From Sphingomonas vulcanisoli (GTDB lineage Bacteria; Pseudomonadota; Alphaproteobacteria; Sphingomonadales; Sphingomonadaceae): 64,000 nucleotides of DNA. The stretch lies in contig NZ_JAAOZC010000005.1 in NCBI RefSeq assembly GCF_011761305.1, positions 1 through 64,000 on the forward strand, in the 5' to 3' direction. Position numbers and translations under genes: made by a program. The notes beneath the pieces are model-generated. The model searched no databases. It was not told the origin of the DNA and saw only the letters and a list, made by a program, of their open reading frames with translations. Positions 20,693-59,977 of this stretch are shown piece after piece. Position 1 is the stretch's first letter. Every line of letters starts with the position of its first letter.

Positions 20693-21070
20693 TCATCCCG
20701 CGCCGGAGGGCGATGCATCCTCGTCCTCCTGCACCCGTCGTTGTCCCTCGGCCCCGGCGCGGCGTGCCGCCTCGACCTCGATCGTGATCGCGCGTAGCGT
20801 TCGCTCGACCAGCGCCTGTCGTTCGGCCGCGCGCGCCGCCGCCTCGTCTTCGGTGGCCTCGAACGTATCGACATCGGCGGCGGTGAAAAGGCCGTGCCGC
20901 GCCGCCAGCCGCTCGTGCGCGTCGAGCCGGTCGCGCAGCGTGGTCACCTCGCCGAGCAGCGCCAGCGTCACCCACCACAGCCGATCGATCGAGGGATCGT
21001 CGAAAAAGGTCGGCCGCTCGCCCTTGGGCACCCGCGCGCGCATCGGGTCATAGGTCTTGGGGTCGCTCAC
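20693..21070 (-). CDS. Small helical partner of the methyltransferase (copy 1)
   Basis: 125-aa, mostly helical, highly charged protein. The central block IDRLWWVTLALLGEVTTLRD, followed by RLDAHERLAARHGLF, then VDTFEATEDEAA and AERQALVERTLRAI, aligns well with the 87-aa protein at 30023-30286 (IDKL, GELWTARDR, VDSHRPDAALAEA, AERETFVARIL). Both are encoded directly after, and overlap by ATGA, a methyltransferase of the same subfamily. No characterised family was recognised. A subunit or stabilising partner of the methyltransferase is inferred from context. Confidence 0.7.
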   Translation of the reverse strand: MSDPKTYDPMRARVPKGERPTFFDDPSIDRLWWVTLALLGEVTTLRDRLDAHERLAARHGLFTAADVDTFEATEDEAAARAAERQALVERTLRAITIEVEAARRAGAEGQRRVQEDEDASPSGAG

Positions 21071-22227
21071 GGCTTCACGGCGGAGAGGACGAACCAGTTG
21101 GAAAGATCGGACTTGCCCTTCTCTAGCGGCACGAAGCCCGGTGCGGCATCGACGCCGTTGCCGACCGTCGTCTGGAACCCCATCCGCGCATCGACGAACC
21201 CCGCGTCGGCGGCGATCCCGGCGAGATCGGCGCCGGTCAGGCCGATCCAGAACGGTTCCTGATTATAGCGTCCCTCGCGCGCGCTCAGCACCTTCATCCA
21301 CGGCGACATCAGCTCCTGCCGGAACGGCACTTCGAGATGCGCCATCACCCCGCCCGGCCGCAGCAGCCGATGGCATTCACGGAAGATCGCGCGCAACGCG
21401 CTGTGCGTCGTCTCGTGCAGCATGACGTGAGAGACGATGAGATCGAAATGGCCATCGGGGAAATCGGTGTGCTCGGCGTTCTGCTGGCCATAATGCACCC
21501 GCGCGCCGAGAGACTCGGTGCGCGCATGGGCGTAGCGGAGGCAGGGGGCGGCGGTGTCGATCGCGTGGACCTCGGCTTGCGGATAGGTCCGCGCCCACGG
21601 CACCGTCGACGCGCCGTTCTGGCAGCCGATGTCGAGGATGCGCTCCAGCTTCAGGTCCGGGAAGCGCTCGCGGATATGCGCGATCAGTGTATGGCCGCGC
21701 CGGTCGTGGATCTCGCCGCCCAGCGCATTGCCCATGTAGGTATGCGCGGCGCGATCCAGCACCGCGCCCTGCCGCACATCGTCGTCGCGCGTCTCGGTAT
21801 GATAGCTGCCGGGAAAGCGGTGGTTGTCGGCCGCGCTCTGATAACGCGGCAGCGGCAGATCGGGATCGAGGGTCAGGCTGCCCTGCGCGCTCGCCGAAAT
21901 GTCGCGGAAGCGATCGACCAGTTCGGGCAGCTGGCGATCGACGCTGTCCATGCAATAATGCCAGATCAGATCCTGCCAGGTCTGGCTGAAGACCTGCCAC
22001 AGCCGATGCTCGTCGCGCGCCTCCATGCCCTTCACCACCGCGCGATCGGCCTCGCGCCCGGTCAGCCCTTTCGCCGCGACCGCGGGCGCGACGACCTGAT
22101 CGCAGATCACCCGGTTGGCGTCGGACAGAAAGCCCATCGTGTAGCCGCGCAGCGTCGCGGCATAAGCCTGGCGTGAGGCCTCGTCGTGCGAGAGATCGGC
22201 GAGCATGGCGTGCGGCTTTGCGGACAA
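21067..22227 (-). CDS. SAM-dependent methyltransferase with a long N-terminal domain (copy 1)
   Basis: 386-aa class I methyltransferase. The Rossmann domain starts near residue 190: ILDIGCQNGASTVPWA (motif I), AEVHAIDTAAPCLRYA, then FDLIVSHVMLHE and CHRLLRPGGVMAHLEVP. About 190 residues in front form a separate helical domain containing LTLDPDLPLPRYQ, also found in the paralogue at 30283-31332. The start is a TTG preceded by AAGGAG with seven-base spacing; ATG 22206 lacks a good site. First gene of the operon methyltransferase, small partner, DUF1838-like, esterase. Substrate unknown, perhaps a phenolic or carboxylic group. Confidence 0.8.
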   Translation of the reverse strand: MSAKPHAMLADLSHDEASRQAYAATLRGYTMGFLSDANRVICDQVVAPAVAAKGLTGREADRAVVKGMEARDEHRLWQVFSQTWQDLIWHYCMDSVDRQLPELVDRFRDISASAQGSLTLDPDLPLPRYQSAADNHRFPGSYHTETRDDDVRQGAVLDRAAHTYMGNALGGEIHDRRGHTLIAHIRERFPDLKLERILDIGCQNGASTVPWARTYPQAEVHAIDTAAPCLRYAHARTESLGARVHYGQQNAEHTDFPDGHFDLIVSHVMLHETTHSALRAIFRECHRLLRPGGVMAHLEVPFRQELMSPWMKVLSAREGRYNQEPFWIGLTGADLAGIAADAGFVDARMGFQTTVGNGVDAAPGFVPLEKGKSDLSNWFVLSAVKP

Positions 22228-22348
22228 TCGCTGTCTCCTTCGCTGCACCGATGCTAACGCCGCGCCGATACCGATCGGCATCTTCGCCCTATTTGGTCGA
22301 TAAGCGGATAGATTGGCGGACGCCAGAGTTGCATCAACATACAAGCCG

Positions 22349-23236
22349 ATGGAGACGACTTTGACCGACCGCTCACTCGAAAACCGCGTCACGATCGTCA
22401 CCGGCGGCAGCCGCGGGCTCGGCAAGGTGATGGCCATGGCGCTGGTGCAGGCGGGCGGGCGCGTGCTGATCGTCGCCCGCTCCGCCGACGAGATTGCCGC
22501 AACCGTCGCCGAGGCCAAGGCGCTCGGGACCGGCGCGTGCGAGGGTTATGTCGGCGACGTGTCGCGCTGGGAGGATTGCGCCGCGGCGGTCGATCATACC
22601 GAAGGGCTGTTCGGCCCGGTGCAGGTGCTGATCAACAATGCGGCGCTCGGCTTCCCGGCCAAGCAGGCGAGCCTGCCGCTAGGGACGCCCTTCCCTTTCT
22701 GGACCTACCAGCCCGAAGACATCACAGCGATGGTTGGGGTGAACCTGCTCGGCCCGTTCGCGATGTTCCATGCCGTCGCGCCCAGAATGATCGCGGCGGG
22801 GTTTGGCCGGGTGATCGGCATCTCGACATCGCGGCCGACGATGCGCCGCCCCAACGCGGGCGCCTATGGCCCGATCAAGGCGGCGCTGGAGGCCAGCACG
22901 GCGATCTGGGCGCAGGAGCTGCAAGGCACCGGCGTCACCGCCAACATCCTGCTTCCCGGTGGCCCGACCGATACCGCGTTCGTACCCGGCGGCAATGTCG
23001 GTGCGCGGGCCAAGCCGTTCGTCGCGGGCAAAGAGCCGGTCGGTCAGGAAGGCACCAATATTGATCTGCTGCCCGCATCGATCATGGCGCCGCCGATCCT
23101 CTGGCTGGCGAGCGACCAATCGAACGGCGTGACAGGCCGTCGTTTCGTCGCACGCGACTGGGACGCCGATCTTGCTCCGAGTGACGCGGCCCGGCGCGCG
23201 ATGCAGCCGCCTTCGGACATGCCAGTCATCATGTAG
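22349..23236 (+). CDS. Short-chain dehydrogenase/reductase
   Basis: Classical SDR of about 295 aa, NAD(P)-dependent oxidoreductase. TGGSRGLG (residues 18-25) is the cofactor loop, VLINNAALG the NNAG-type motif, SRPTMRRPNAGAYGPIK carries the active Tyr and Lys. The catalytic Ser falls in GISTSRPT. ATG 22349 has no good ribosome site; a TTG four codons later is preceded by GGAG and may be the real start. It is divergent from the methyltransferase operon and precedes the acyl-CoA dehydrogenase by about 100 bp. Possibly a 3-hydroxyacyl dehydrogenase or alcohol dehydrogenase of the local pathway. Confidence 0.85.
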   Translation: METTLTDRSLENRVTIVTGGSRGLGKVMAMALVQAGGRVLIVARSADEIAATVAEAKALGTGACEGYVGDVSRWEDCAAAVDHTEGLFGPVQVLINNAALGFPAKQASLPLGTPFPFWTYQPEDITAMVGVNLLGPFAMFHAVAPRMIAAGFGRVIGISTSRPTMRRPNAGAYGPIKAALEASTAIWAQELQGTGVTANILLPGGPTDTAFVPGGNVGARAKPFVAGKEPVGQEGTNIDLLPASIMAPPILWLASDQSNGVTGRRFVARDWDADLAPSDAARRAMQPPSDMPVIM

Positions 23237-23339
23237 TCAGTCCGCGTGCGCATTTGACCGTCATGCGGATAATGCAGGCCGCGATGCTCGCCCGGACACC
23301 GTCGACTGCCGATAGGCCGCATCATCAAGCGAGGTATAG

Positions 23340-24527
23340 ATGAGCCAGCACACCAGCCCGATCGATTGGGCGGATCCGTTCGCCCTGTCCGACCAACTCA
23401 CCCAGGAGGAGACCCTGGTCCGGGAGACGGCCTATGCTTATGCGCAGGAGCAGCTCCTGCCGCGCGTGACCTCGGCCTATCTGGAAGAACGGTTCGACCG
23501 CGAGATCATGAGCGAGCTCGGCGAGCTGGGCATGCTCGGCGCGACCGTGCCTGAGGAATATGGCGGGGCGGGGCTCGGCTATGTCGCCTACGGCCTGATC
23601 GCCCGCGAGGTCGAGCGGGTCGATTCCGGCTACCGCTCGGCAATGTCGGTGCAGTCCAGCCTCGTGATGTATCCGATCCACGCTTATGGATCGGAGGAGC
23701 AGCGCAAGAAATATCTGCCCGGCCTGGCGCGCGGCGAGCTGATCGGCTGTTTCGGCCTGACCGAGCCCGGCGCCGGGTCCGATCCCGGCGGGATGATCAC
23801 CCGCGCCCGCAAGATCGACGGCGGCTATCTGCTCGACGGTGCCAAGATGTGGATCACCAATTCCCCGATCGCCGATCTGGCGGTGGTCTGGGCGAAATCG
23901 GAAGCCCATGGTGGCGCGATCCGCGGCTTCATCGTCGAGCGCGGCGCGAAGGGTTTCTCGACCCCCAAGATCGAGGGTAAGCTGTCCCTGCGCGCCTCGG
24001 TCACCGGCGAGATCGTGCTCGACGGCGTTGAAATCGGCGAGGACGCGCTGCTGCCCAACGTCGAAGGGTTGAAGGGTCCGTTCGGCTGTCTCAACCGCGC
24101 GCGCTACGGCATCGGCTGGGGATCGATCGGCGCGGCGGAAGCCTGTTACGCGGCGGCGCGCAGCTATACGCTGGACCGCAAGCAATTCGGCCAGCCGCTC
24201 GCCTCGAAGCAAATCGTGCAATTGAAGCTTGCCGACATGATGACCGAGATCGGCCTCGGCCTGCAGGCGGCGCTCCGCGTCGGCCGGCAGATGGACGAGG
24301 GCGTGATCCAGCCGGATCTGATCTCGCTCATCAAGCGCAACAATTGCGGCAAGGCGCTGGCGATCGCCCGCGTCGCGCGCGACATGCACGGCGGCAACGG
24401 CATCTCGGCGGAATTCCACGTCATCCGCCACGCCGCCAATCTGGAAACGGTCAACACTTACGAGGGCACGCACGACATCCACGGCCTGATCCTGGGCCGC
24501 GCGATCACGGGTATTCCAGCCTTTTAA
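23340..24527 (+). CDS. Acyl-CoA dehydrogenase, glutaryl-CoA dehydrogenase type
   Basis: 395-aa FAD enzyme. The motifs are close to Gcd[74 protein letters not shown], and the C-terminal [20 protein letters not shown] with the catalytic Glu. Glutaryl-CoA dehydrogenase makes crotonyl-CoA by oxidative decarboxylation. With the ligase, hydratase and hydrolase around it, the enzyme may work on a glutaryl-like intermediate from ring degradation, or serve lysine/aromatic catabolism generally. It ends in a 4-nt overlap with the convergent hydrolase gene. Confidence 0.9.
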
Positions 24528-25366
24528 AGCGCCGGCCGATCATCGAGGAAGGCCACGAACCGCGCCAAGGTCTCGTCGCGGCCCGGGCCGCTCAGGCCGG
24601 GCGAGATATAGCGTTCGGCATGCGGCATCAGCGCGGCCAGTTCGTCGAAATAGGCCAGCAGCATGTCCTGGCGCGCGCAGGTAAACAGCGTCGGGACGGT
24701 GATCGCGCCGAACCGTTCCGGCATGTCATAGGCGATGGCGGCGTTGTAGCTGAGGTGGAAGGTGCGCGCCGCCTTGATCACCTCGACGAACTTGTCGTGC
24801 AGCGCGTCGGTGGTCGGCACGTCTGATCCACGCAGATGCTCGGCATCGCGCTTGTACCATGGCCAGAACAGGTAAGCGTCGCGCACGAAATTCCACGCCC
24901 AGAGCAGATGGCTCGCATCGGGCGCGATCGTCAGCGGCGGCGCGTGATGCGCAAGCATCTCGGCGCGCTGTTCGGGCGTGAAATTGGAGACGCCGTCGAG
25001 GATCAGATGGCGCACTCGCTCGGGCCAGGCCAGCGCAACCTCGGCGGCGATCGTCGCGCCGGTGTGGGTTCCGTAGAGATCGAACTTCTCAAGGCCGAGC
25101 GCGTCGATCGCCGCCATGTGCGCGCCGGCGAAATGCGCGATGTCGGGGTGCGCCTCCAGCGGCGGCGATGAGTCACCGTTGCCCAGCGTATCGAGCGCGA
25201 AGACCGCTCGGGTTCCGCCGAACGCGGCGATCAGCGGCTCCATCATCTTCGATGAACCGGGCGACGGGTGGAGGATGACGAGCGGCCGCGCCCCACCCGA
25301 CCCGGCGGTGCGGTAATGAACCTGAACGCCGGGGGCGATGTCGGCGAAGCCGCGGCGGATCGTCAT
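24524..25366 (-). CDS. Alpha/beta-hydrolase fold protein with His at the nucleophile position
   Basis: 280-aa alpha/beta-hydrolase fold protein: [17 protein letters not shown] (oxyanion region), [14 protein letters not shown], the elbow [14 protein letters not shown], and [16 protein letters not shown] for the late acidic residue. The usual G-x-S-x-G is G-T-H-T-G, so the nucleophilic Ser is replaced by His. The C-terminal part [15 protein letters not shown] has no obvious catalytic His. Either this is a lyase/C-C hydrolase subgroup with a different chemistry or it is non-hydrolytic. It follows the MFS gene by two bases in a four-gene operon. Confidence 0.8.
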
Positions 25367-25368
25367 CG

Positions 25369-26658
25369 TTACGCGATTGCTGCCTGCGCCCGGCGATACG
25401 GCGCGAGGCAGAGGGTAAGCACCAGCACCGAGGCGATTGCCGCGCTGCCGCCAACGGTCGCGAGCGCCGCGCTGAGCCCGTGATCGCCGCCATAGACATG
25501 CTGGGTTACCAACGCGACCAGCGTCGCGCCGACGCCGATGCCGGCGAGGTTGAGCCAGAACAGATACACCGCCGAGACCTGGCCGCGCATCCGGTTGGGA
25601 GTGATCTCCTGAAACGCCGCCGCCGCACCGCCATAGGGCATCGCGCCCAGGAACAGGAACATGCCGTACAGCGCCAGCGATGCCTGGCCACTCAGCATCA
25701 ACGGCGCCGCGATCGCGAACGGGCAAGCCGTCGCCGCCGCGATCACCCCGATCACCACATTCGAATCGGACCGCCCTTTGTCGCGCAGCCAGCCCGCGAT
25801 CCAGCCACCGGTCAGCCCGCCGAGCGTGCCGCAGATCGCGATCACCGGGCCGTAGCCCCACGCGACATCGCTCGACGACCAGCCATAGGCGCGCTTCAGA
25901 TGCTCGGGGATCCAGAAGGTGGTGCCGTTCCACATGACGCTTTGGAGACATAGGCCAAGGATCAGCAGGCCATAGGCGCTGAACTGCCCGCGCATGTGCG
26001 CCAGCACCGCGCCGAACGAGGGGATGCCGACCGTCGCACCCGCGCCCCGCCGCGCGGGCTCGCGCAGCGTTAGAACGACCAGCGCGATCAGCAGGCCGGG
26101 CAGACCGACGGCGACGAACACCTGTTGCCACGGCTCGAAATGCCCGAACGCGCCGTCCACCGGCGCCAGTTTGCCGAGCAGCACGCCGCCGAACAATGTG
26201 GCGATCGCCGGACCGAGATAGATCGCGCTCTGATAGACGGCGAGCGCGCGGACCAGCTTCTTCCCGCTGAACTTGTCGGCCAGCATCGAATAAGCGGCAG
26301 GCGACAGCGTCGATTCGCCGACGCCGACCGCGATCCGCGCCGCGAACATCGCCACAAACGTCGCCGCAAAGCCGCACAAGGCCGTCGCCAGGCTCCAGAT
26401 CGCGATGCCGATCGCGACGATGACGGTGCGGCGGTAGCGATCGACCAGCCGACCGATCGGAATGCCCATGAAGGTATAGAAGATCGCAAAAGCCAGGCCG
26501 TGGAGCAGGCTGAGCTGGACATCGCTGATCTGGAGGCTGTCGCGGATCGGCTTGACCATCAGCGTCAGGATGGTGCGATCGATGTACGAAAAGGTATAGG
26601 CGAGGATGAGGATCGCCACGAACCAGATCGCGTAACGCCGGCTCTCGGTTTCGCCCAT
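25369..26658 (-). CDS. MFS transporter (aromatic acid/hexuronate-type)
   Basis: 429-aa, 12-helix major facilitator. Helix 1 is YAIWFVAILILAYTFSYIDR, the loop 2-3 motif is GIPIGRLVDRYRR, and motif 5-like GVGESTLSPAAYSMLADKF (a GE..LSPA pattern typical of the sphingomonad Spns/aromatic-acid MFS group) is clear. ATG 26658 follows AAGGA; an ATG at 26673 overlaps the ligase stop by ATGA and is the alternative. It is placed between an acyl-CoA ligase and a hydrolase, so it probably imports the substrate of this operon. Confidence 0.88.
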   Translation of the reverse strand: MGETESRRYAIWFVAILILAYTFSYIDRTILTLMVKPIRDSLQISDVQLSLLHGLAFAIFYTFMGIPIGRLVDRYRRTVIVAIGIAIWSLATALCGFAATFVAMFAARIAVGVGESTLSPAAYSMLADKFSGKKLVRALAVYQSAIYLGPAIATLFGGVLLGKLAPVDGAFGHFEPWQQVFVAVGLPGLLIALVVLTLREPARRGAGATVGIPSFGAVLAHMRGQFSAYGLLILGLCLQSVMWNGTTFWIPEHLKRAYGWSSSDVAWGYGPVIAICGTLGGLTGGWIAGWLRDKGRSDSNVVIGVIAAATACPFAIAAPLMLSGQASLALYGMFLFLGAMPYGGAAAAFQEITPNRMRGQVSAVYLFWLNLAGIGVGATLVALVTQHVYGGDHGLSAALATVGGSAAIASVLVLTLCLAPYRRAQAAIA

Positions 26659-26669
26659 CCGTTGTTCCT

Positions 26670-28196
26670 TCATTCGAGCGCGCGCAATTCGGTCTTGAGC
26701 ACCTTGCCGTTGGCGTTGCGCGGCAGCGCGTCAACCAGCGTCAATTCCTTCGGTATCTTGTACGCCGCGATCTTGTCGCGGCAGAAATCGGCGATATCGG
26801 CCTGCGTCAGAACCGCGCCCGCCCGCGCGACCGCGACGGTTCGCAGCCGCTCGCCCCAGGTCTCGTCGGGCACGCCGATCACCGCGACATCAGCGATGCC
26901 GGGATGCGCGAATAGCACCTCCTCGATCTCGCGCGGGTAGATGTTGACCCCGCCCGAGATGACCATGTCCTTCTTGCGGTCGACGATATAGAGAAACCCC
27001 TCCGCGTCGCGCCGCGCCATGTCGCCGACCGAGACCCAGCCGTCCTTGACCGCCTTCGCCGTCTCCTCGGGCCGGTTCCAGTAGCCGTTGAACAGCACCG
27101 GGCCGCGCGTCCACAATTCGCCTACCTCGTCCGGATCGCAGAGACTGCCGTCGTCGCGTCGCACTTCGGCCTCGCAATGCGGGAAGGTGGTGCCGACGCA
27201 CTGCTGCTTGCGCAGCTGATCCTGGGGGCGGAGATTGCAGACGAGGCCCGTCTCGGTCGCGCCATAGAGTTCGTTGAGCACCGTCTCGCCGAAATATTCC
27301 ATGATCCGGGGCTTAAGCGCCTGCGGCAGCGGTGCGGCATTGGCGAGGATGCTGCGCAGCGGTGGCCGTTCGTATTTCGCCAGCGTCTCCGGCGGCAGCG
27401 CGAAGATCATCTGGAAATGCGTCGGCACCATGAACAGCCCGGTGATGCCGCCGAACTTGAGGCGTTCGAGCACGGTCTCGGCATCGAACTTGTCGAGGAT
27501 CTCGATCGATCCGCCCGCCGCCAGTACGCCGACCGGAAAGCCGAGCCCGCCGCCATGATTGAGCGGCGTCATCGCCAGGAAGCGATCGTCGGGGCCGAAG
27601 CAGCCGAACTCGGCGCCGCAGATCAGCCCGACCAGCATCCGCGAGCGGTGCGATAGCACGACGCCCTTGGGCTTGCCGGTCGTGCCCGAGGTGTAGGGGA
27701 TCGTCCAGGCGTCGCACTCGTCGATGACGGGGACAACGGCGGGAGCTGGGGCTTCGGCGAGGAGCCGTTCATAAGCGTCGCCGAAGGATATGATCGTCAA
27801 TCCCTCGATGCCGGTCTTCTCCACCAATTCGCGCGAAGGCGGATCGACTAACACCAGCCGCGCCCCGCAATCCTCCAGCACCTGCCGGGCCTCGACCGGC
27901 GCCAGCCGCGGGTTGATCGTCGCTACCGCCGCGCCGGCATCGGGCACGCCCGCGACCACTTCGATGAACTCGGGCCGATTGCGCGCCACGATCGCGACGA
28001 CGTCGCCCTTCGTCACGCCCAGCGCAATCGCCGCGTCGCGCAGCCGCCCGGCCCGCTCGGCCAGCACGCCGAAGCTGGTCTCGCGACCGTCCATGACGAC
28101 CGCCGCCTTGCTCGGATTCCGCCCCGCCGCCGCGCGGATCGCACCGCCGAAGGTCATCGAATGAAAGGTCGTCGGCGCGGTCACCGCATGGCTCAT
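26670..28196 (-). CDS. Acyl-CoA synthetase (ANL superfamily)
   Basis: 508-aa AMP-forming acid-CoA ligase. P-loop YTSGTTGKPKGVVLSHRSRM, aromatic-binding region FLAMTPLNHGGGLGFP, adenine motif LNELYGATETG, hinge YIVDRKKDMVISGGVNIYP and the C-terminal Lys in RNANGKVLKTEL are all present. It activates a carboxylic acid with ATP and CoA. Start ATG 28196 overlaps the amidohydrolase stop by ATGA, and the stop overlaps a possible MFS start, so all four genes are one operon. Substrate (aryl, alicyclic or fatty acid) not determined. Confidence 0.92.
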   Translation of the reverse strand: MSHAVTAPTTFHSMTFGGAIRAAAGRNPSKAAVVMDGRETSFGVLAERAGRLRDAAIALGVTKGDVVAIVARNRPEFIEVVAGVPDAGAAVATINPRLAPVEARQVLEDCGARLVLVDPPSRELVEKTGIEGLTIISFGDAYERLLAEAPAPAVVPVIDECDAWTIPYTSGTTGKPKGVVLSHRSRMLVGLICGAEFGCFGPDDRFLAMTPLNHGGGLGFPVGVLAAGGSIEILDKFDAETVLERLKFGGITGLFMVPTHFQMIFALPPETLAKYERPPLRSILANAAPLPQALKPRIMEYFGETVLNELYGATETGLVCNLRPQDQLRKQQCVGTTFPHCEAEVRRDDGSLCDPDEVGELWTRGPVLFNGYWNRPEETAKAVKDGWVSVGDMARRDAEGFLYIVDRKKDMVISGGVNIYPREIEEVLFAHPGIADVAVIGVPDETWGERLRTVAVARAGAVLTQADIADFCRDKIAAYKIPKELTLVDALPRNANGKVLKTELRALE

Positions 28197-29056
28197 CGCG
28201 GGATCTTCTTGAAGATCTTCAGCGCATTGTCGCGCATCAGCTTCGCGTGGTTTTCGGGCTTCATCCCGAAGGCCGCGACTTCCTTCACCGCGCGTTCGGG
28301 ATCGATCACCGGCCAGTCGGTGCCGAACAGCACCTTGTGGCTGCCATAGCTGTCGGCATAGCGGATATATTGCGGCGGCCAGTGCTTGGGGGCGTAAGCG
28401 TCCCCCGCGGTGTAGATATTGTCGTGCTTCCAGCACATCGAGATCATCTCGTCGGTCCACGGCACCCCGATATGAATGCCGATGATCGTCAGCTCGGGAA
28501 AATCGATCGCGACCTGATCGAGCAGGATCGGCCGCGCGACCGACGGCAGGCGACGCTCCTTGGAATAAACGAGATTGTGCCCGACCTGCATCATGATCGG
28601 AATGTCGAGCTCGCAGCACTTCGCATAATAAGGATAGATCTGCGCGGCGTCGGGCGCGGTGCCGAACCAGTGCGGATACCAGTGCGCGCCGACGAAGCCG
28701 AGTTCGTTCACGGCGAATTCCAGATCGCGCAGCCCCTGCATCCCGCGCGTCTGATCGACACCCGCGAGCGCCGAAAAACGATCGGGATGCTGCGCTACGA
28801 TATCGGCGATGACCTGATACGGTATTTCCCATGATCCGCGCACACGCAGATCGCCCGCGCGCACCGCGATCAGCAGCGAACGCTCGATCCCGGCGCGGTC
28901 CATCTTCTTGAGATACTCGTCGATCGAGACACCGTCGAACATGTCGGCGGGCATCCGCACCTGGCGCTTGAAGTCATCGTCGAGGCCCGTCCAGCCATTC
29001 TGCACCGCCTCGGGCGTATAAATGTTGCAAACGATGTCGATAAAGCCGGCGGTCAT
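28193..29056 (-). CDS. Amidohydrolase-2 family metal hydrolase/decarboxylase
   Basis: 287-aa TIM-barrel protein of the amidohydrolase 2 (ACMSD-like) family. Recognisable parts: FIDIVCNIYTPEAV near the N-terminus where HxH is usual, HPDRFSALAGVDQTRG, GFVGAHWYPHWFG, IIGIHIGVPWTDEMI and the end VLFGTDWPVIDPERAV. The usual N-terminal metal-binding HxH seems to be replaced by VCN, so metal use is doubtful, while the GTDWP Asp is kept. Family members decarboxylate or hydrolyse aromatic and lactone acids. First gene of the operon; AGGA lies before ATG 29056. Confidence 0.82.
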   Translation of the reverse strand: MTAGFIDIVCNIYTPEAVQNGWTGLDDDFKRQVRMPADMFDGVSIDEYLKKMDRAGIERSLLIAVRAGDLRVRGSWEIPYQVIADIVAQHPDRFSALAGVDQTRGMQGLRDLEFAVNELGFVGAHWYPHWFGTAPDAAQIYPYYAKCCELDIPIMMQVGHNLVYSKERRLPSVARPILLDQVAIDFPELTIIGIHIGVPWTDEMISMCWKHDNIYTAGDAYAPKHWPPQYIRYADSYGSHKVLFGTDWPVIDPERAVKEVAAFGMKPENHAKLMRDNALKIFKKIPR

Positions 29057-29085
29057 TGTGCGTCCTGTTTTCGGTATGCTGCAGA

Positions 29086-29104
29086 ATAAGAAAATTCTTC
29101 TTAT
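29086..29104. promoter_or_regulatory. Perfect palindrome in divergent promoter (operator candidate)
   Basis: ATAAGAA, five bases, TTCTTAT: perfect 7-bp inverted arms in an AT-rich stretch that contrasts with its GC-rich surroundings. It sits 30 bp before the amidohydrolase operon (minus) and about 110 bp before the enoyl-CoA hydratase gene (plus), the right place to control both. It looks like a site for a dimeric MarR-, GntR- or TetR-type regulator; no such gene is next to it in this window. Confidence 0.5.
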
Positions 29105-29213
29105 CCGAACGCGCATCGGCGCGCCTGCTCGCACAACGGACAAAGGCACGGCAAGATGGCTCTGGCTGCGCCGGCAGCGGCATGAGGGCGGTCACGAATG
29201 ACGAGCGGAGCAC

Positions 29214-30005
29214 ATGATGAGCTATTCGACCCTGACCTATGAGGTTTCCGACCGGATCGGCGTGATAACCTTCACGCAGCCGGAACGGCTCAACGCGATC
29301 AGCGAAGCGCGGTTGGCCGAATTGGAAGCGGTGCTCGATCGCGTCGAGGCGGACGAGGACATCGGCGCGCTCATCCTGACCGGCACCGGCAAGGCGTTCT
29401 GCGTCGGGCTCGATCTCGATCTGCTCGAACGCGCCTTCGGCGATATCACCTATTTCGAAGCGACCGTGCGCCGTCTGTCGATCATTATCGAGCGCATCGA
29501 GGCGCTGGAAATCCCCACCATCACGGCCGTCAACGGCTATGCCCGCGCGGGCGGGTTCGAAATCACCTTGGGCTGCGACTTCCTGATCATCGCCAATGAA
29601 GCGAAGATCGGTGACGCACATACCGATGCCGGCGTGCTCCCCGCCTGCGTCACGCTCCGTCTCAAGCGGCGCGTCGGCGATCAGCGCGCCAAGGAACTGA
29701 TGCTGACCGCGCGCTGGTATTCCGGCGCCGAAGCGGTGGCGATCGGCCTCGCGCTGAAATCGGTGCCGCTGGCCAATCTGCTCGACGAGGCGCGTGCCTT
29801 TGCGGCCAGCATTGCAGACAAGCCCCGCGCGACGATCGCGGCGGTCAAGAAAGTCTTCATCGACGGCGCCGATCTGGGCGTGAAGGAAGGCACCGAACTC
29901 GAGCTCAAATCCTTCGTCCGCTACATGAGCACGGAGCCCTACGGCCGCGAGGGCTATCGGGCGTTCCGCGAGAAGCGCGCGCCGAGTTGGAAGCAGGCGG
30001 GCTGA
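29214..30005 (+). CDS. Enoyl-CoA hydratase/isomerase family protein
   Basis: 263-aa crotonase-fold protein. It opens with YEVSDRIGVITFTQPERLNAI. The oxyanion loops are KAFCVGLDLD and GYARAGGFEITLGCDFLI, which keeps the first active Glu. The second position, normally Glu in G.PE..LG, reads DAHTDAGVLP here, so water addition may be lost and another crotonase reaction (isomerase, lyase, thioesterase) is possible. It is divergent from the ligase operon with a palindromic operator candidate between, so the two units probably share control. Confidence 0.88.
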   Translation: MMSYSTLTYEVSDRIGVITFTQPERLNAISEARLAELEAVLDRVEADEDIGALILTGTGKAFCVGLDLDLLERAFGDITYFEATVRRLSIIIERIEALEIPTITAVNGYARAGGFEITLGCDFLIIANEAKIGDAHTDAGVLPACVTLRLKRRVGDQRAKELMLTARWYSGAEAVAIGLALKSVPLANLLDEARAFAASIADKPRATIAAVKKVFIDGADLGVKEGTELELKSFVRYMSTEPYGREGYRAFREKRAPSWKQAG

Positions 30006-30022
30006 GGACGCCGCACTCCCCC

Positions 30023-30286
30023 TCAGTTATCGGGGGCGAGATAGTCCAGAATGCGGGCGACAAACGTCTCGCGCTCCGCTGTCAATGCCTCGGCCAGCGC
30101 CGCGTCGGGGCGATGGCTATCGACCGATCCGGGCGCGATCGTCTGGCCTTCTATCAGGATCCGCTCCAGCACGGCCTGACGATCCCGCGCCGTCCATAAT
30201 TCGCCCGCGACGTACATCAGCGCCTGGGTCAGCTTGTCGATCCGCGCGTCGAGCAGGCGTTCACGGTCGGAGGCGTCGACCGTCAT
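30023..30286 (-). CDS. Small helical partner of the methyltransferase (copy 2)
   Basis: 87-aa charged helical protein. Start ATG 30286 overlaps the methyltransferase stop by ATGA. The block ARIDKLTQALMYVAGELWTA, followed by RDRQAVLERIL and a late AERETFVARILDYL, matches the 125-aa protein at 20693-21070 in spacing and key residues, despite low overall identity. The conserved elements (ID+L, GE..T.RDR, ER, AER...V.R.L) suggest a coiled-coil or helical-bundle partner. No known family. Confidence 0.7.
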   Translation of the reverse strand: MTVDASDRERLLDARIDKLTQALMYVAGELWTARDRQAVLERILIEGQTIAPGSVDSHRPDAALAEALTAERETFVARILDYLAPDN

Positions 30287-31332
30287 GCCTTGCTCGCCTC
30301 GACCAGCCACGGGAAATTCTTCGGCGCGATGCCGCGTCCGGTGGCGTCGGCAAAGCCTTCCTCACGCGCGATCGCGGCCCAATCGAGCATCGCCGACTCC
30401 CGCCACCATGGCTCGCCACCATGCGTTGCCGAGCGATCGGCGCGCCACATCGTCATCTTGTCCTGCACCGCATAGGGGGTGATGTCGGCGATCAGCAGCG
30501 ATCCACCCGGCCGCAGCACGCGGAGCGCCTCGCGATAGATGGCGCGGATCGCACTCTCGGGCATTTCGTGCAAAAAGCTGTACGCCGTGACGAGGTCGAA
30601 GCTGTCGTCGGCGAAGGCTAGCTTCTCGGCCGCCATCTGCTTGAGGGTCCATGCCCAGCCAGCCTCGTTCGCGACGCGCAGAGCCTGACGCAGCATCGGC
30701 GCGGCGAGATCGATGCCGGTGATATGCGCGTCGGGGAAGGTCTGCTGGAGCGCGACAGTGAAATGGCCCGAGCTGGTGCCGAGCTCCAGGATATCGCGAT
30801 AATCCTGGCGGGGCAGCTCCTTGAGCACCGCGCGGCGCTGCGCAAACATGTCGCCGAGCGGGAAGACCTTTGCGACCATCAGCCGGTGGACGATCTCGCC
30901 ATGGATATAGCCCTGCTGCTCGTGCCTGTCCCAGCCGCCGAGCGTCGAATGGAAATCCACGCCGTCGAAATAATCGGGCATGACGAGATCGGGATCGACG
31001 GTCAGCGTCGCGGGCCCCTTCGCCTCCAGCGCCTCCAGTTCGGGCAGCACGGCGGGTGCAATCTCGTTAAAGGCGTCGCGGGCGACACGGCCATGCTCTT
31101 TGCCGAGATATCCCTGCAACGCATCGGCGGCATGGAAGGCATCGGAGCCTGCGAGCTGGTCACAGAGAAAGGCGTCCCGCGCGTCGAGATCGTCGGGCAG
31201 ATCGTCCGGGGCAATGCCCAGCGCATCGACCTGTTGGCGGACGGCGCCATGCAGTCGCCCAAGCCCGCGCGATGCCGAGACCATGAAATCGAGCCGCGAT
31301 CGGCCGGACTGAAGAAGGGGTGCTTCGTTCAT
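30283..31332 (-). CDS. SAM-dependent methyltransferase with a long N-terminal domain (copy 2)
   Basis: 349-aa class I methyltransferase. Motif I is ILELGTSSGHFTVALQ (about residue 175), then ITGIDLAAPMLRQA, FDLVTAYSFLHEMPESAIRA and LRVLRPGGSLLIADITPY. The 170-residue N-terminal part, with LTVDPDLVMPDYFDG and GGWDRHEQQGYIHGEI, corresponds to that of the copy at 21067-22227. Together with the overlapping small protein it forms a paralogous two-gene unit. It converges with the enoyl-CoA hydratase. Acceptor substrate unknown. Confidence 0.8.
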   Translation of the reverse strand: MNEAPLLQSGRSRLDFMVSASRGLGRLHGAVRQQVDALGIAPDDLPDDLDARDAFLCDQLAGSDAFHAADALQGYLGKEHGRVARDAFNEIAPAVLPELEALEAKGPATLTVDPDLVMPDYFDGVDFHSTLGGWDRHEQQGYIHGEIVHRLMVAKVFPLGDMFAQRRAVLKELPRQDYRDILELGTSSGHFTVALQQTFPDAHITGIDLAAPMLRQALRVANEAGWAWTLKQMAAEKLAFADDSFDLVTAYSFLHEMPESAIRAIYREALRVLRPGGSLLIADITPYAVQDKMTMWRADRSATHGGEPWWRESAMLDWAAIAREEGFADATGRGIAPKNFPWLVEASKA

Positions 31333-35919: not shown

Positions 35920-37378
35920 CGGCGAGCATATCGTGCTTGAGGGCGTTTTTGTCGACCTTGCCGTTGGCGGTGCGCGGCAGGGCGGGCCGCAGTTCGATCG
36001 TCTTTGGGGTCTTGTAGCCCAGCTCGGCCTTGGCGCGCGCGCGTAATGCCTCGACCGTGACGCCGTCGCCCGCCACCACCGCGATCAATTTCTCCCCCCA
36101 ATCGGCGTCGGGCAGTCCGAACACCGCCGCCTCGCTGACGCCCGGCACCGAGCAGAACCAAGCCTCGACCTCGGCCGGGTAGATGTTGAAGCCGCCGCTG
36201 ATCACCAGATCTTTGGCACGACCGACCAGCCGGATCCGCCCGTCCGGATCGCGCACGGCGAGATCGCCCGAATAGAGCCAGCCTTCGCGCAGCACCGCTG
36301 CCGTCGCCTCCGGCATCTCCCAATAGCCGAGCATCACCTGCCCCGCGCGGATGGTCAGCTCGCCGGTTTCGCCATCCGGCACCGGCCGCCCGGCCTCGTC
36401 GCGCATCACCACCTCGACAAAGCTGTACGGCCGGCCGATCGTGTTCGCGCCGGCGTTGGTGTGGTCGGCCTCGGACTGGAAGCAGACCGTCATCATCGCC
36501 TCGGTCAGCCCGTAATTCTGCACCAGGATCGGGCCGAAATACTCGAGCGCGGCGCCGAGCGTGTTGGGCGGGATCGCCTCCGCGCCGTAGATCACGCGGC
36601 GCAGGCTGGAGAGATCGCGGCCGTGGCGGCCCTCGTCCGCGACGATGCGGGTCAGCACGGTCGGCACGCAGGAAAACACCGTTGCGCGGGTGCGCTCGAT
36701 CGCGTCGAACAGGTCGGCGGGGGTGCGCATATCGACCAGGATGTTCTCCGCCCCCCGGATCAGATTGGGCGTGATATAGGCCCCGCTGGCGTGGGTCAGC
36801 GGGCCGATATGGATGAACTTGTCGTCGCCGCGCATGTCGCGGTCGACCAGCATGTTGGTGGTGACCGCCGCCCAATTGGCGTGACTCATCATCACGCCCT
36901 TGGGCGCGCCGGTGGTGCCCGAGGTGAAGTTGAGCGAGCACAAAGCTTCGGGCGCAACCTCGGGCAGATCGATATCGGGGGCTGCAGCAAGCAGCGCCGG
37001 CCAGTCTTCGCCATCGACCGCGCAGAGCCACGGGCCGTGCAGCTCGGACACCCGCGCCGCCGTCTCGCTGTCGTAGAAGAGCGCGGCGGGGCGCGCCGCG
37101 GCGACGATCCGCGCCACCTCGCCGCCGGTGTAGAGCCGGTTGACCGGCACCCGCACCAGCCCCGCGCGCTCGCAGGCGAGCTGCAGCACGACGAACTGGG
37201 TGCAATTGCGCATGAAGAACAGGATGCGCTCCCCCGGCGGATAGCTGGCGGCCAGCGCGCGCGCGAGGCGATCGGCCTGGGCGTCGAGCTCGGCGGCGCT
37301 GTACGAACCGCCCGCGTCGGTCAGCACAATCCGCTCGCCATGCCGGCGCAGCGCCTGCGCGATGATCCGTCCCAGCAC
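35909..37378 (-). CDS. Acyl-CoA synthetase (ANL superfamily)
   Basis: 489-aa AMP-forming ligase. P-loop LNFTSGTTGAPKGVMMSHAN, NYGLTEAMMTVCF, GRAKDLVISGGFNIYPAEVE and the C-terminal RTANGKVDKNALKHD with the catalytic Lys. The start is a GTG preceded by AAGGAG with six-base spacing. It heads a two-gene operon with a thiolase, so it probably starts the CoA-dependent degradation of a carboxylic acid. Confidence 0.92.
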   Translation of the reverse strand: MLGRIIAQALRRHGERIVLTDAGGSYSAAELDAQADRLARALAASYPPGERILFFMRNCTQFVVLQLACERAGLVRVPVNRLYTGGEVARIVAAARPAALFYDSETAARVSELHGPWLCAVDGEDWPALLAAAPDIDLPEVAPEALCSLNFTSGTTGAPKGVMMSHANWAAVTTNMLVDRDMRGDDKFIHIGPLTHASGAYITPNLIRGAENILVDMRTPADLFDAIERTRATVFSCVPTVLTRIVADEGRHGRDLSSLRRVIYGAEAIPPNTLGAALEYFGPILVQNYGLTEAMMTVCFQSEADHTNAGANTIGRPYSFVEVVMRDEAGRPVPDGETGELTIRAGQVMLGYWEMPEATAAVLREGWLYSGDLAVRDPDGRIRLVGRAKDLVISGGFNIYPAEVEAWFCSVPGVSEAAVFGLPDADWGEKLIAVVAGDGVTVEALRARAKAELGYKTPKTIELRPALPRTANGKVDKNALKHDMLADAR

Positions 37379-37535
37379 CCAACACTCCTTTCAGCCGGTT
37401 TTCCGTGCCGCCGCGCAGGACGACGGAAACAGCGGCGCCCGCCGGTTATCCGCCAGCCGGGTAATTGCATGCTGCCCCGGTTTCCCGTTAGCAAATCCCC
37501 GCATCACGGCATCAAATCCGGTTCGGGAAAACGCA

Positions 37536-38294
37536 ATGACAGGGCAATCCTCGGCGGAAGAGATGGGGTTCGCCTCGCCCACCGAAGAGCTGCACGCTTT
37601 CATGCGGCTCAAGGGATCGATCCGCAACGAGGCATGGCCGCTGCGCTATTTCGGCGTCATTCAGGCCCAGTTTCCGGACGGCACGGTGCGCCCGTTCATC
37701 GGCTTCGAAGGCCTCGAACACACCCGCTTCGTTCCGCAGGCGGACGGATCGTTCAACATGATCGAGTCGATGGTGACCTATTTCACCGATATCGACAGCG
37801 GCGAATATCTCTCCTCCTTCGACAACCCGATTACCGGCAAGACCAACCGGCCGGTCTCCAATTACGCTGCCGGTGAATCCTATAATTTCAGCGCCACCGC
37901 GATCACGCCCCTGTTCGGCCCATACACCGATCCCGGCACCGGCATGGGGTTGCGCTGGTTCCGCTCGGCGGACCGCGTCTGGGTGCAATATGATCGCACC
38001 TATCCCGATCAGTGGTTCACGCCTTCCGCAGAGCTCGTCACCTTCGAGGGGCCGGCGGAAGCAGTTCTCCGGACGGATGTCGGCGGCGTCGAGGCGGCCT
38101 TTTGCTCGACGACCATCCTGCCCTGGTTCAAATGGCTGGAGATGGACGACGTACCGGGCTGGACCTTGTGGCATGCCAACGGCGACAAGGTGCGCTCGCT
38201 CGACCGGCTGCCGCAACGGCTGCTCGATCAGCTCGAAAAACATCACCCGCAGGCGTTGCTGACGCCCGGCGAGGGCAATTGGAAGGGATTATAA
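37536..38294 (+). CDS. DUF1838 family protein (cytoplasmic form)
   Basis: 252-aa protein of the DUF1838 family: FMRLKGSIRNEAWPLRYFGV, TYFTDIDSGEYLSSFDNPIT (the TD..TGE.L..W.NP.TG pattern), SATAITPLFGPYTDPGTGMG, and WVQYDRTYPDQWFTPSAELV. Unlike its neighbour at 40075 it shows no signal peptide. Biochemical function is unknown for the family. Its TAA stop shares a base with the ATG of the double-hydrolase gene (TAATG), so the three genes 37536-40956 form one coupled unit. The start ATG has only a weak GGGA site. Confidence 0.8.
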   Translation: MTGQSSAEEMGFASPTEELHAFMRLKGSIRNEAWPLRYFGVIQAQFPDGTVRPFIGFEGLEHTRFVPQADGSFNMIESMVTYFTDIDSGEYLSSFDNPITGKTNRPVSNYAAGESYNFSATAITPLFGPYTDPGTGMGLRWFRSADRVWVQYDRTYPDQWFTPSAELVTFEGPAEAVLRTDVGGVEAAFCSTTILPWFKWLEMDDVPGWTLWHANGDKVRSLDRLPQRLLDQLEKHHPQALLTPGEGNWKGL

Positions 38295-40078
38295 TGCGGG
38301 GCAATTCTTGGCTGAGCGTGATCCTGTCGATCGCAGCGCTGGTCTGCTTCGCTCCCGGCGCCCTTGCCGCCCCCACGCAGCAGATCATCCAGTTGAAAGC
38401 AGCTGACGGGCGCGCGGTTCCTGCGCTGGTTACCTATCCGGAGGGCGGGCCAGATACGCAGGCGCCGGTTGCGATCATCCACCACGGTGGCCCGGGCGGC
38501 CATCCGCTACGCTCGCTTAGCGCGGCGCGCTGGGCGGCGGACTATTTTGCCGGACGCGGTTATATCACCATCAGCATCATGTCCCGCATCGGACGCGACG
38601 TGATAGACCAGCCGTTCGGCGCGCAGGCCGCCGACATCAAGGGCGCGGTCGATTGGGCAAGCCAATTGTCGCACGGCCCGATCGTGCTGGTCGGCCACAG
38701 CTCCGGTTCGGTGTCGGTAACCTATTATGAAGCGACCACGCAGGATCCGCGCGTCAAGGCGATCGTCCACTTCGCGCCGACCTTTCCGGGCAGCCTGTGG
38801 ATGCCGACCAGCATGGGCAGGCCGCGCTACGATGCGGTCGTCGCGCGGCTGAAGAAGCTCGTTGCTGACGGCAAGGGCGACCAGCCGATCTACGAGGACC
38901 ATCACCTCGCCCCGCCGGCGCCGCAAGACATCACCTACGGCTATCTCATGAGCGCGAAAGTGTGGTTGAGCTGGTGGGGGCCTGACTCGAAGCAGAACAA
39001 TCTCGCGCTCTTCCCCAACATCCGCGTCCCGATGCTGATGATCTCGGGCGATAAAGATATCTTCGCGAGCCGCGCCTACCAGGAGGAATTGAAGAAGGCC
39101 GCCGTCAACAGCCCGCGCGTCGACGCGATCATCCTCGATGGCGGCATCCCGCACGAATTCGTCGGTGCCGAGGTGAAGGCGCCGGCGCTGGCCTATGATT
39201 GGCTCGCTGAGGTCGGCATCCGCCCGTCGCCGCGCATCGCGACGCATGTCGTCGACATGAAGCTGAGCGCCTACGATATCCGCCCCGGCGTGATCTACGA
39301 GCCGGCCGACGCGGGCTTCCGCAAGCCGCTGGCGGTGATGCTGATGCCCGATTTCGCCGACGACGTGATGCTGACCCCGTTCGACGAGATCGGGCCACGG
39401 CTGGCGAAGGCAGGCTATACCGTGCTGATCCCGCAGGACAGCGGCAGCGGCTGGCCGCTCTATCGCTCGGTGGCTGGGACCGTCTCCACCAACCAGCGCG
39501 CGTGGCTCAAATATCTCGCCGACCAGGGCCATGCCCAGGTGGCGATCGTCGCGCACGGGCAGGAAGGGGTGATGGTCCCCGCGCTGCTGCCGCCGATCGC
39601 TCAAGGGCCGTCGATCGCGGGCGTCGCGCTGATCCAGCCGCCTGGCGCCCCGGCTGCGTTCGCTCAGGACGTGCTTGGCGCGCAGCCCTATGCCAAGGCG
39701 CTTGCCGATGCCGACGCGGCGGTCAAGCGCGGCGCGGGGGGCACGACGATGATCATCGTCCCCTATCGGAGCAACGGCCGTGATCCCGCGACGCACAAAT
39801 GGCTCAATTATATGGCGTCGAGCTTCCTGTCCTATTGGGGGCCCTCGGCGCCCGTCGCCCCCGTCCCTGCGCTAACGGCAGCGGGCGAGCCGGTGCTGTT
39901 GATCGATGCGGACAAGGGGCGGTTCCTCAGTCGTGATGCGCAGACATCGCTTGCGAAGGGCGGCGTCTCGTCGCTTTGGTACGATAAGGTCGCCAGCCCG
40001 TTCGACGATCCCGACCGGCTCGCCGCCGATCTCGCGAAATGGCTCGACGCCTTGCCGAAGCAGCCCGAGTTCAAATGA
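38294..40078 (+). CDS. Secreted tandem alpha/beta-hydrolase (active plus degenerate domain)
   Basis: 594-aa exported protein (signal WLSVILSIAALVCFAPGALA). The first half (about 30-305) is a complete hydrolase: VAIIHHGGPGGHPL, nucleophile LVGHSSGSVSVTYYE, acid region MLMISGDKDIFASRAY, His in ILDGGIPHEFVGA. The second half (about 310-590) repeats the fold with AVMLMPDFADD, AIVAHGQEGVMVPALL and VLLIDADKGRFLS, but the elbow reads GQEG where Ser should be, so it is probably inactive. A fusion of active and dead copies flanked by two DUF1838 genes is unusual. Likely a periplasmic ester or lactone hydrolase. Confidence 0.82.
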   Translation: MRGNSWLSVILSIAALVCFAPGALAAPTQQIIQLKAADGRAVPALVTYPEGGPDTQAPVAIIHHGGPGGHPLRSLSAARWAADYFAGRGYITISIMSRIGRDVIDQPFGAQAADIKGAVDWASQLSHGPIVLVGHSSGSVSVTYYEATTQDPRVKAIVHFAPTFPGSLWMPTSMGRPRYDAVVARLKKLVADGKGDQPIYEDHHLAPPAPQDITYGYLMSAKVWLSWWGPDSKQNNLALFPNIRVPMLMISGDKDIFASRAYQEELKKAAVNSPRVDAIILDGGIPHEFVGAEVKAPALAYDWLAEVGIRPSPRIATHVVDMKLSAYDIRPGVIYEPADAGFRKPLAVMLMPDFADDVMLTPFDEIGPRLAKAGYTVLIPQDSGSGWPLYRSVAGTVSTNQRAWLKYLADQGHAQVAIVAHGQEGVMVPALLPPIAQGPSIAGVALIQPPGAPAAFAQDVLGAQPYAKALADADAAVKRGAGGTTMIIVPYRSNGRDPATHKWLNYMASSFLSYWGPSAPVAPVPALTAAGEPVLLIDADKGRFLSRDAQTSLAKGGVSSLWYDKVASPFDDPDRLAADLAKWLDALPKQPEFK

Positions 40079-48764: not shown

Positions 48765-48776
48765 GGACCACGACCC

Positions 48777-52765: not shown

Positions 52766-52790
52766 CGCCAGATTTGAGGAATAATTATTG

Positions 52791-59199: not shown

Positions 59200-59208
59200 C
59201 AGATGCTC

Positions 59209-59967: not shown

Positions 59968-59977
59968 GTGCTGCTCC

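Follow-up and report, generated by a model that had tools for sequence, protein, structure and literature searches.

An unnamed and widespread two-gene module, present in diverged copies in Sphingomonas vulcanisoli, probably encodes a small-molecule methyltransferase together with a small partner protein

The window, i.e., the whole stretch of 64,000 nucleotides of Sphingomonas vulcanisoli analysed here (contig NZ_JAAOZC010000005.1), carries two copies of a two-gene module composed of a methyltransferase gene and a gene for a small charged protein. The pair represents an unnamed family found in Proteobacteria, Binatia, Myxococcota, cyanobacteria and Acidimicrobiia (cultured carriers include Niveispirillum irakense, locus L102, and Stutzerimonas degradans, locus L089), and its large protein is probably an enzyme that moves methyl groups onto small molecules. 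Our best explanation, to which we assign a probability of about one half, is that each module encodes a two-component class I SAM-dependent small-molecule methyltransferase, whose small protein is co-translated with the large one and binds it, and which in this genome belongs to a catabolic cluster.

Both modules lie on the reverse strand. Module 1 comprises a methyltransferase of 386 residues (21067..22227) with an N-terminal domain of about 190 residues and a class I Rossmann domain, and a small partner of 125 residues with a GTG start (20693..21070), assigned by the family profile. The TTG start of this methyltransferase at position 22227 is preceded by AAGGAG 7 bases upstream, and homologues start at about the same position. 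Module 2 comprises a methyltransferase of 349 residues with an ATG start (30283..31332; Pfam scan and pairwise alignment) and a small partner of 87 residues (30023..30286) that lacks the KGxRPxF N-terminal stretch of the family consensus. A third module is located elsewhere in the genome (G000:C11, locus L007; methyltransferase end at 4040, small gene at 3675-4043), and at thresholds of E 1e-20 for the methyltransferase and 0.01 for the small gene the genome contains three members of each family. The preliminary description had reported an ATGA overlap between the two genes in both copies of the window; this is correct for module 2, whereas module 1, like module 3, shows a GTGA overlap. Its view that the two pairs are paralogous holds, as a pairwise alignment of the two methyltransferases shows 32% identity across 259 residues and the profiles of their partners match.

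A single pairwise comparison of the two small proteins gives 32% identity over 68 residues (E 2e-4). The common pattern first noted by eye in both reflects homology: comparison of their profiles with hhalign yields a probability of 98.2 and E 4e-14 over 73 columns, and since these profiles were built independently of each other, from 20 and 3 sequences, respectively, the failure to match that had been named as speaking against the pair did not occur. Searches of Pfam, NCBIfam and PDB gave the family no strong match. Among 28 members scanned, the best family match is PspB, found in only 5 of the 28 and at best with E 0.0041, and other Pfam families reach 0.012 or worse. CHAD is likewise a weak match, at 0.035. 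Matches to the nitrile hydratase alpha subunit or a fragment of it (PDB, E 0.22; NCBIfam, two matches of a single member each, at 0.029 and 0.088) vanish with a larger alignment. Trm112p is absent from the Pfam matches of these 28 small proteins at E 0.1.

The assignment of the large proteins to the class I methyltransferases rests on Methyltransf_25, which scores 79.4 bits in module 1 and 77.6 bits in module 2 against a Pfam cutoff of 27. The SAM-binding Rossmann core defined by this match spans residues 197-293 in module 1 (21349..21639, reverse strand), with His271 and Glu272 inside and Glu324 beyond, and residues 181-277 in module 2 (30502..30792, reverse strand; Pfam and alignment). For a broader view, 160 distinct full-length methyltransferases were compiled; near-duplicate places of overlapping loci were merged, and dropping four pieces of at most 280 residues reduced the set from 164 to 160. 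As the set was gathered with the same family profiles, it is not a random sample. His136, Asp262, His271, Glu272 and Glu324 are invariant in all 160. The same five residues are unchanged in all 36 copies inspected in two expanded genomes, a set that partly overlaps with the 160. The SAM site, i.e., the glycine-rich motif I and the acidic residue after strand 2, is kept as Gly201 (159 of 160), Gly205 (159 of 160) and Asp224 (155 of 160). This conservation argues against a protein that has the methyltransferase fold and performs another chemistry, e.g., decarboxylation, cyclisation or hydrolysis. Such a change of function would account for as many as three copies next to degradation genes, given that repeated methylation within one breakdown pathway is unusual, and it draws on the three diverged modules of this genome and on several other genomes in which a single 20 kb locus combines type 3 with type 1 or type 2; we consider it unlikely.

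The preliminary description had pointed to an unusual N-terminal domain in both methyltransferases. The motif LT[LV]DPDL..P.Y is indeed common to both, but the rest of the domains does not align: a profile comparison matches them only over 34 columns around DPDL..Y..H (probability 85.6). This domain of about 190 residues has no match of weight in Pfam or PDB. Its end is marked in module 1 by the LTLDPDLPLPRY...H..PG stretch (21808..21876, reverse strand), which includes the invariant His136, and in module 2 by the LTVDPDLVMPDY...H stretch (30937..31005, reverse strand) with the matching His128. Within the Rossmann domain, His271 is aligned to residue 140 of PDB 3bus, as counted by hand on the profile alignment. 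We take 3bus to be RebM and its His140 to be the catalytic base. Another match, PDB 9fce, also has a histidine at this position, which is thus not by itself proof of mechanism.

Conserved coupling of the two genes, first noted in the window, and a widespread co-occurrence are both supported. A small gene lies within 400 bases of the methyltransferase in 65 of 79 GTDB loci and for 114 of the 160 methyltransferases; a few of the remaining 46 are near contig ends or have a small gene 0.5-2 kb away. In 59 relatives, 29 of 35 methyltransferase matches are accompanied by a small gene on the same strand at no more than 3 kb, and one more (L032) was added with a better profile. Co-occurrence also holds at the genome level (Fisher p about 4e-12 in the 59 relatives and 5e-12 in 153 genomes of the class). 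The same 11 relatives have a methyltransferase and a small-gene match at E 1e-6 or better, a cut set after the search, while the searched limit of 0.01 gives weak small-gene matches in six more genomes; among the class genomes, nine contain both families, two only the methyltransferase and one only a small-gene match. Of 69 pairs, 19 show a candidate start codon that overlaps the stop of the methyltransferase. No natural fusion of the two proteins was found in the 79 loci, which counts against a two-component enzyme. One of the sequence sets used covers 12 of 13 in-frame pairs, together with 46 of 56 methyltransferases and 45 of 56 small proteins, which makes 103 of 125 possible rows.

Catabolic operons of sphingomonads often move together, and some module copies are plasmid-borne (four plasmid records were used as DNA only, having no gene annotation). 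Adjacency might thus reflect nothing but joint transfer of such operons between bacteria, with no functional link of the two proteins. This is highly improbable, because the pair is kept in differing surroundings from cyanobacteria to Myxococcota, whereas every other neighbour family is present in at most 20 of the 79 loci.

The small protein is usually inherited together with the methyltransferase. Trees of the two families correlate with r 0.81 in 114 pairs, while the best of 1000 shuffles reached 0.31. In 26 loci that also carry a gene for an FAD oxidase, at a distance of 0.2 to 11.7 kb from the module, the methyltransferase tree corresponds more closely to that of the small protein (r 0.91) than to that of the oxidase (r 0.65). 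The latter comparison and the weakness of the family matches of the small protein, PspB included, speak against a separate helper made from the same operon, i.e., a chaperone, regulator or substrate-delivery protein next to a methyltransferase that works alone. For such a helper one can cite the flexible position of the small gene, which is downstream in 100 and upstream in 14 of the 114 pairs and in locus L148 has an FAD oxidase gene between it and the methyltransferase, as well as the solo methyltransferases frequent in one lineage, whose invariant residues are conserved. We regard it as a possible, if rather doubtful, alternative.

This lineage consists of some alphaproteobacterial genomes with 42-65 methyltransferase copies and only 5-8 small genes. 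The near-complete genomes G192 and G082 each contain 42 methyltransferases and seven small genes; G082 and G213 were counted once because their coordinates are identical and they look like one genome. In G192, only seven of the 42 methyltransferases have a small gene within 400 bases, and 35 have none so near. Methyltransferases mostly without a small gene, named beforehand as evidence against the pair, are therefore seen in this lineage alone and not among the GTDB loci or the relatives. The copy imbalance counts against a strict two-subunit enzyme. Solo copies among the 160 retain the invariant residues and, consequently, catalysis may not need the partner; no alignment columns separate paired from solo methyltransferases at the threshold tried. 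Tentatively, these genomes may reveal a superfamily of small-molecule methyltransferases that has so far escaped description and possesses its own small activator, expanded to 42-65 old paralogues per genome in Alphaproteobacteria that are aquatic judging by isolate names, where a few shared activators could serve dozens of substrate-specific enzymes opening hard-to-degrade organic matter, as a methylation counterpart of the monooxygenase expansion of SAR202.

A catabolic role had been suggested for the modules and is partly supported. In the window they do sit among catabolic genes; in contrast, three cyanobacterial loci examined have the module without a catabolic cluster. Neighbour families were counted on simple ORF calls of more than 120 residues, clustered at thresholds of 33% identity and 60% coverage, and cluster representatives were named afterwards by Pfam scan (two of nine had no Pfam match). 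The commonest neighbour cluster is that of the FAD-linked oxidase at 43481..45082 on the reverse strand (FAD_binding_4, GlcD-like N half), single-copy in this genome at E 1e-20. On the forward strand, two DUF1838 genes flank a hydrolase-like ORF (37362..40956), DUF1838 being a neighbour cluster in 13 of 79 loci. Hydantoinase/oxoprolinase A and B follow on the same strand (46716..50654), A being caprolactamase-alpha-like below the family cutoff, and then a PEP mutase/isocitrate lyase superfamily protein (52788..53657), methylisocitrate-lyase-like below cutoff; all three families recur near the module. Genes for an FAD monooxygenase, a PuuE-allantoinase-like protein (below cutoff, no Pfam match), an arylmalonate-decarboxylase-superfamily protein and a second FAD monooxygenase occupy 57137..61177 on the reverse strand, and Caulobacter locus L134 has a similar set. 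As far as such family assignments allow, the recurring window neighbours would be suited to opening lactam, imide or hydantoin-like rings. A literature search on the annotated plasmid pJE1 of Sphingomonas sp. JE1, pursued for the substrate, found no paper on the plasmid.

The cyanobacterial loci would be in line with a methyltransferase that acts on protein, RNA or lipid, its small protein being an adaptor in the manner of Trm112, for which PMC5372719 describes a small activator shared among several methyltransferases. Outside the cyanobacteria, however, the commonest recurring neighbour families look like small-molecule enzymes, and 42-65 diverged copies per genome would fit varied small substrates better than one macromolecule; a macromolecular target is accordingly very unlikely.

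From the family assignment, SAM motif, invariant residues, gene coupling, co-inheritance and context we infer a physical complex, a role of the small protein, O-methylation and a substrate class along the following lines. The large protein would bind SAM in its standard class I Rossmann domain, and the N-terminal domain probably closes over the substrate, bringing His136 beside His271, Glu272 and Glu324 in the active site. His271 would most likely act as general base, while the methyl group is passed to a hydroxyl, enol or carboxyl oxygen of a metabolic intermediate. The small charged partner, presumably translated from the same mRNA via the stop/start overlap, would bind the large protein and stabilise or gate it; some genomes may use one such partner for several methyltransferases. 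The window modules would act within the large catabolic cluster.

Small-molecule methyltransferases of class I usually count as single-gene enzymes. A small partner that is widely inherited and has no named family would be a new way to shape or control them. For annotators, the unnamed ORF beside many genes labelled 'class I SAM-dependent methyltransferase' belongs with these genes. In some Alphaproteobacteria, the size of the paralogue sets suggests that methylation serves the breakdown of organic matter in a way so far unstudied.

In agreement with the preliminary description, no described system with this layout was found in the family libraries or in the literature searched (titles and abstract starts). 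Trm112 binds zinc through cysteines; cysteine is absent from both small proteins of the window and present in only 17 of 116 family members, and the module further differs in its gene adjacency and in the lack of a Trm112p match among the 28 small proteins scanned. What the two have in common is that class I methyltransferases are joined by a small protein, and that one such protein may serve several enzymes, as PMC5372719 indicates for Trm112. With the SAR202 genomes, for which PMC6946804 gives up to 114 FMNO copies in one genome, the expanded lineage shares the presence of a single enzyme family in tens of copies within each genome; the expansions named in that paper are monooxygenases, enolases and dioxygenases, and the word methyltransferase is absent from its main text. 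The best NCBIfam matches, CpaM (NF043040, corrinoid protein-associated methyltransferase) and BioC (TIGR02072), have the Rossmann core in common with modules 1 and 2, which score 59.2 and 67 bits against the CpaM cutoff of 180, and 61.4 and 50.4 bits against the BioC cutoff of 184.95. Also close are the class I small-molecule methyltransferases of the Methyltransf_25/Methyltransf_11 type (PDB profile matches include 3bus, phosphoethanolamine N-methyltransferases, MitM), which the module resembles in a Rossmann core above the Pfam cutoffs and in the His271 position common to 3bus and 9fce, and to which it adds the N-terminal domain of about 190 residues, the invariant His136, Glu272 and Glu324, and a linked small partner.

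Three methyltransferases and three small genes are found in the S. vulcanisoli genome at the thresholds used. Both gene pairs recognized in the window by the preliminary description are correctly placed, and both are encoded on the minus strand. Module 1 is composed of a methyltransferase of 386 residues (22227 to 21067), whose TTG start is preceded by AAGGAG seven bases upstream, and a small charged protein of 125 residues (21070 to 20693). Module 2 comprises a methyltransferase of 349 residues (31332 to 30283) and a small protein of 87 residues (30286 to 30023). The ATGA overlap originally described for both pairs holds for module 2, whereas the genes of module 1 overlap by GTGA. Module 3, located on another contig of the same genome (G000:C11, locus L007 3675-5266), likewise has a GTGA overlap. 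Between module 2 and the gene of a TonB-dependent receptor, positions 31381-31692 encode a small protein that looks secreted and contains repeated TDWGGGYVRGPDSASTTVA units.

The methyltransferases of modules 1 and 2 share 32% identity across 259 residues. Pairwise comparison of their small proteins yields only E 2e-4; two independent profiles, one built from 20 sequences that exclude the module 2 group and the other from 3 sequences of that group, agree over 73 columns (Prob 98.2, E 4e-14), such that the presumed relationship of the small proteins is confirmed. Their family consensus reads roughly AKGxRPxF...DPxxDxL..M.MALA.E.SVLRDRLDT.ER. A common N-terminal domain, also proposed initially, is retained in part: the two types can be aligned across 34 columns near DPDL..Y..H (Prob 85.6), but not beyond these.

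In a single scan of the GTDB contig collection, we studied the best 79 of at least 368 confirmed relatives. These 79 loci are distributed over Alpha- and Gammaproteobacteria, Burkholderiales, Binatia, Myxococcota, cyanobacteria, and Acidimicrobiia. The expected coupling of the pair and its wide co-occurrence are borne out: 65 of these best 79 loci have a small gene no more than 400 bases from the query methyltransferase, and 29 of 35 methyltransferase matches in 59 relatives are accompanied by one at most 3 kb away on the same strand. In a further locus (L148), the small gene is 1.8 kb away, beyond an FAD oxidase gene, and no small gene was seen in 13 of the 79. Co-occurrence was assessed by Fisher tests (p about 4e-12 and 5e-12). 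Among the 59 relatives, the 11 genomes with the methyltransferase are exactly those with small-gene matches at E 1e-6 or better, and six more genomes show weak small-gene matches at the searched limit of 0.01. Among 153 genomes of the class, the methyltransferase occurs in 11, a small-gene match in 10, and both in 9, the sole small-only match being weak (3e-6) and interrupted by stops. In the six plasmid loci examined, among more places listed, all seven methyltransferases have their partner. Of 114 full-length pairs, 100 have the small gene downstream of the methyltransferase and 14 have it upstream; a possible small-gene start codon overlaps the methyltransferase stop in 19 of 69 pairs.

Tree distance matrices of methyltransferase and small protein correlate with r 0.81 across the 114 pairs, while 1000 shuffles remained at or below 0.31. 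In 26 loci which also encode a relative of the window FAD-linked oxidase, methyltransferase and small protein correlate with r 0.91, and methyltransferase and oxidase with r 0.65. The oxidase is separated from the module by 0.2 to 11.7 kb in these loci, so that the two do not always share an operon. These correlations show methyltransferase and small gene travelling as a single unit, which by itself is no proof of contact.

Eight genomes, chosen as those of query loci without an adjoining small gene, were searched whole. They contain 58, 65, 42, 18, 22, 6, 8, and 6 methyltransferases, with 5, 8, 7, 4, 12, 4, 3, and 6 small genes elsewhere, respectively. In each of G192 and G082, two near-complete genomes of one genus, of which G082 is probably one of the eight, 42 methyltransferases stand against 7 small genes. 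Methyltransferases mostly lack an adjacent small gene in G192, where 7 of 42 have one within 400 bases, but not in the best 79 loci or the 59 relatives, where pairing prevails. Among fifteen G192 copies, pairwise identity has a median of 43% (range 34 to 52%), suggesting an old expansion. In such genomes, either the partner is dispensable for solo copies, or many methyltransferases are served by a few small proteins. The excess of methyltransferases counts against a strict form of the two-subunit enzyme suggested at the outset. G192, G082, G211, G212, and G215 (the last three via loci L131, L132, and L138) each carry 22-65 methyltransferases and only 5-12 small genes; 22 methyltransferases are found in the 1.4 Mb genome AG-426-B21, a single cell by name. 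Judged from the names of the isolates, the expanded genomes probably come from lake and sea water. In L143 (8792-13614), four family methyltransferases stand in tandem on one strand, with no small gene within the 21 kb locus.

The window modules lie within 13-61 kb (13570-61177), a stretch which reads like a single catabolic region. It encodes an amidase, two tannase-family esterases, MFS transporters, short-chain and acyl-CoA dehydrogenases, two CoA ligases, an enoyl-CoA hydratase, a TonB receptor, a thiolase, two DUF1838 proteins, three aldehyde dehydrogenases, an FAD-linked oxidase (one copy in the genome at E 1e-20), hydantoinase A and B, a CoA transferase, a PEP-mutase/isocitrate-lyase family protein, a zinc alcohol dehydrogenase, an IclR regulator, two FAD monooxygenases, a PuuE-allantoinase-like protein (scoring under its cutoff and not backed by Pfam), and an arylmalonate-decarboxylase family protein. 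Module 3 adjoins an aconitase-family pair (LeuC-like/LeuD-like, Aconitase_C) and an isochorismatase-domain hydrolase. The commonest neighbour clusters in the 79 loci, the best of at least 368 relatives, include the FAD-linked oxidase (20/79), DUF1838 (13/79), hydantoinase A (12/79) and B (9/79), and PEP mutase (10/79). The oxidase directly follows the small gene in 8 of 69 pairs, and its relatives were confirmed in those eight loci. This neighbour set would suit a putative pathway of lactam, imide or hydantoin-like ring opening to substituted maleate and malate. Some loci hold two types of module, as assigned by the tree: types 1 and 3 occur together in L073, L108, L109, L113 (Novosphingobium), and L116, while L125 (Thermaurantiacus) and L134 (Caulobacter) combine types 2 and 3. 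By eye, parts of the window gene set (FAD-linked oxidase, PuuE-like and arylmalonate-decarboxylase-like proteins, FAD monooxygenases) recur in L134, L125, Blastomonas L104, and Nitrospirillum L117. The catabolic setting applies to the window modules, but not to the cyanobacterial ones examined: a pyridoxal-phosphate enzyme gene, which we read as trpB-like, precedes the module in four Nostoc-type loci, and two other cyanobacteria show different neighbours. Because of these loci, the module is not tied to the window pathway.

Further neighbours were noted individually. Nitroreductase-like proteins, seen by eye, lie on either side of the module in some Gammaproteobacteria (L085, L095, L103); the flanks in L103 are BluB-like and malonic-semialdehyde-reductase-like, each under the NCBIfam cutoff. 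Plasmid pJE1 (L068 14202-14522) encodes a small protein annotated as REDY-like HapK near the module, and DUF1330 or DUF1330-looking proteins occur near modules in L193 (629-1015) and, by eye, L134 (5352-5639).

The module is real and conserved, and carries no name in the libraries used; literature searches, in a collection that covers few subscription papers, returned no description of it. The small family has no weighty match in family or PDB profile searches (best family match PspB, 0.0041), nor has the N-terminal domain (23 sequences) in PDB or Pfam (best E 1.3 and 0.024, respectively). The C-terminal half of the methyltransferase scores far over Pfam cutoffs as a class I SAM methyltransferase domain; the NCBIfam matches listed are far under theirs. 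Among 160 full-length methyltransferases collected with the module profiles, the SAM-site residues Gly201, Gly205, and Asp224 (module 1 numbering) are kept in 159, 159, and 155. His136, which sits in the N-terminal domain, Asp262, the His271-Glu272 pair, and Glu324 are identical in all 160. The same residues are retained in every one of 36 copies inspected in G192 and G082, a set that partly overlaps with the 160. The reading we favour, at a probability of about one half, is that of a small-molecule methyltransferase assisted by an accessory protein, the contact, substrate, and reaction being inferred. PDB profile matches are confined to the Rossmann core. By a hand count on the printed alignment, His271 aligns with residue 140 of 3bus, which we take to be the sugar O-methyltransferase RebM with His140 as its base.
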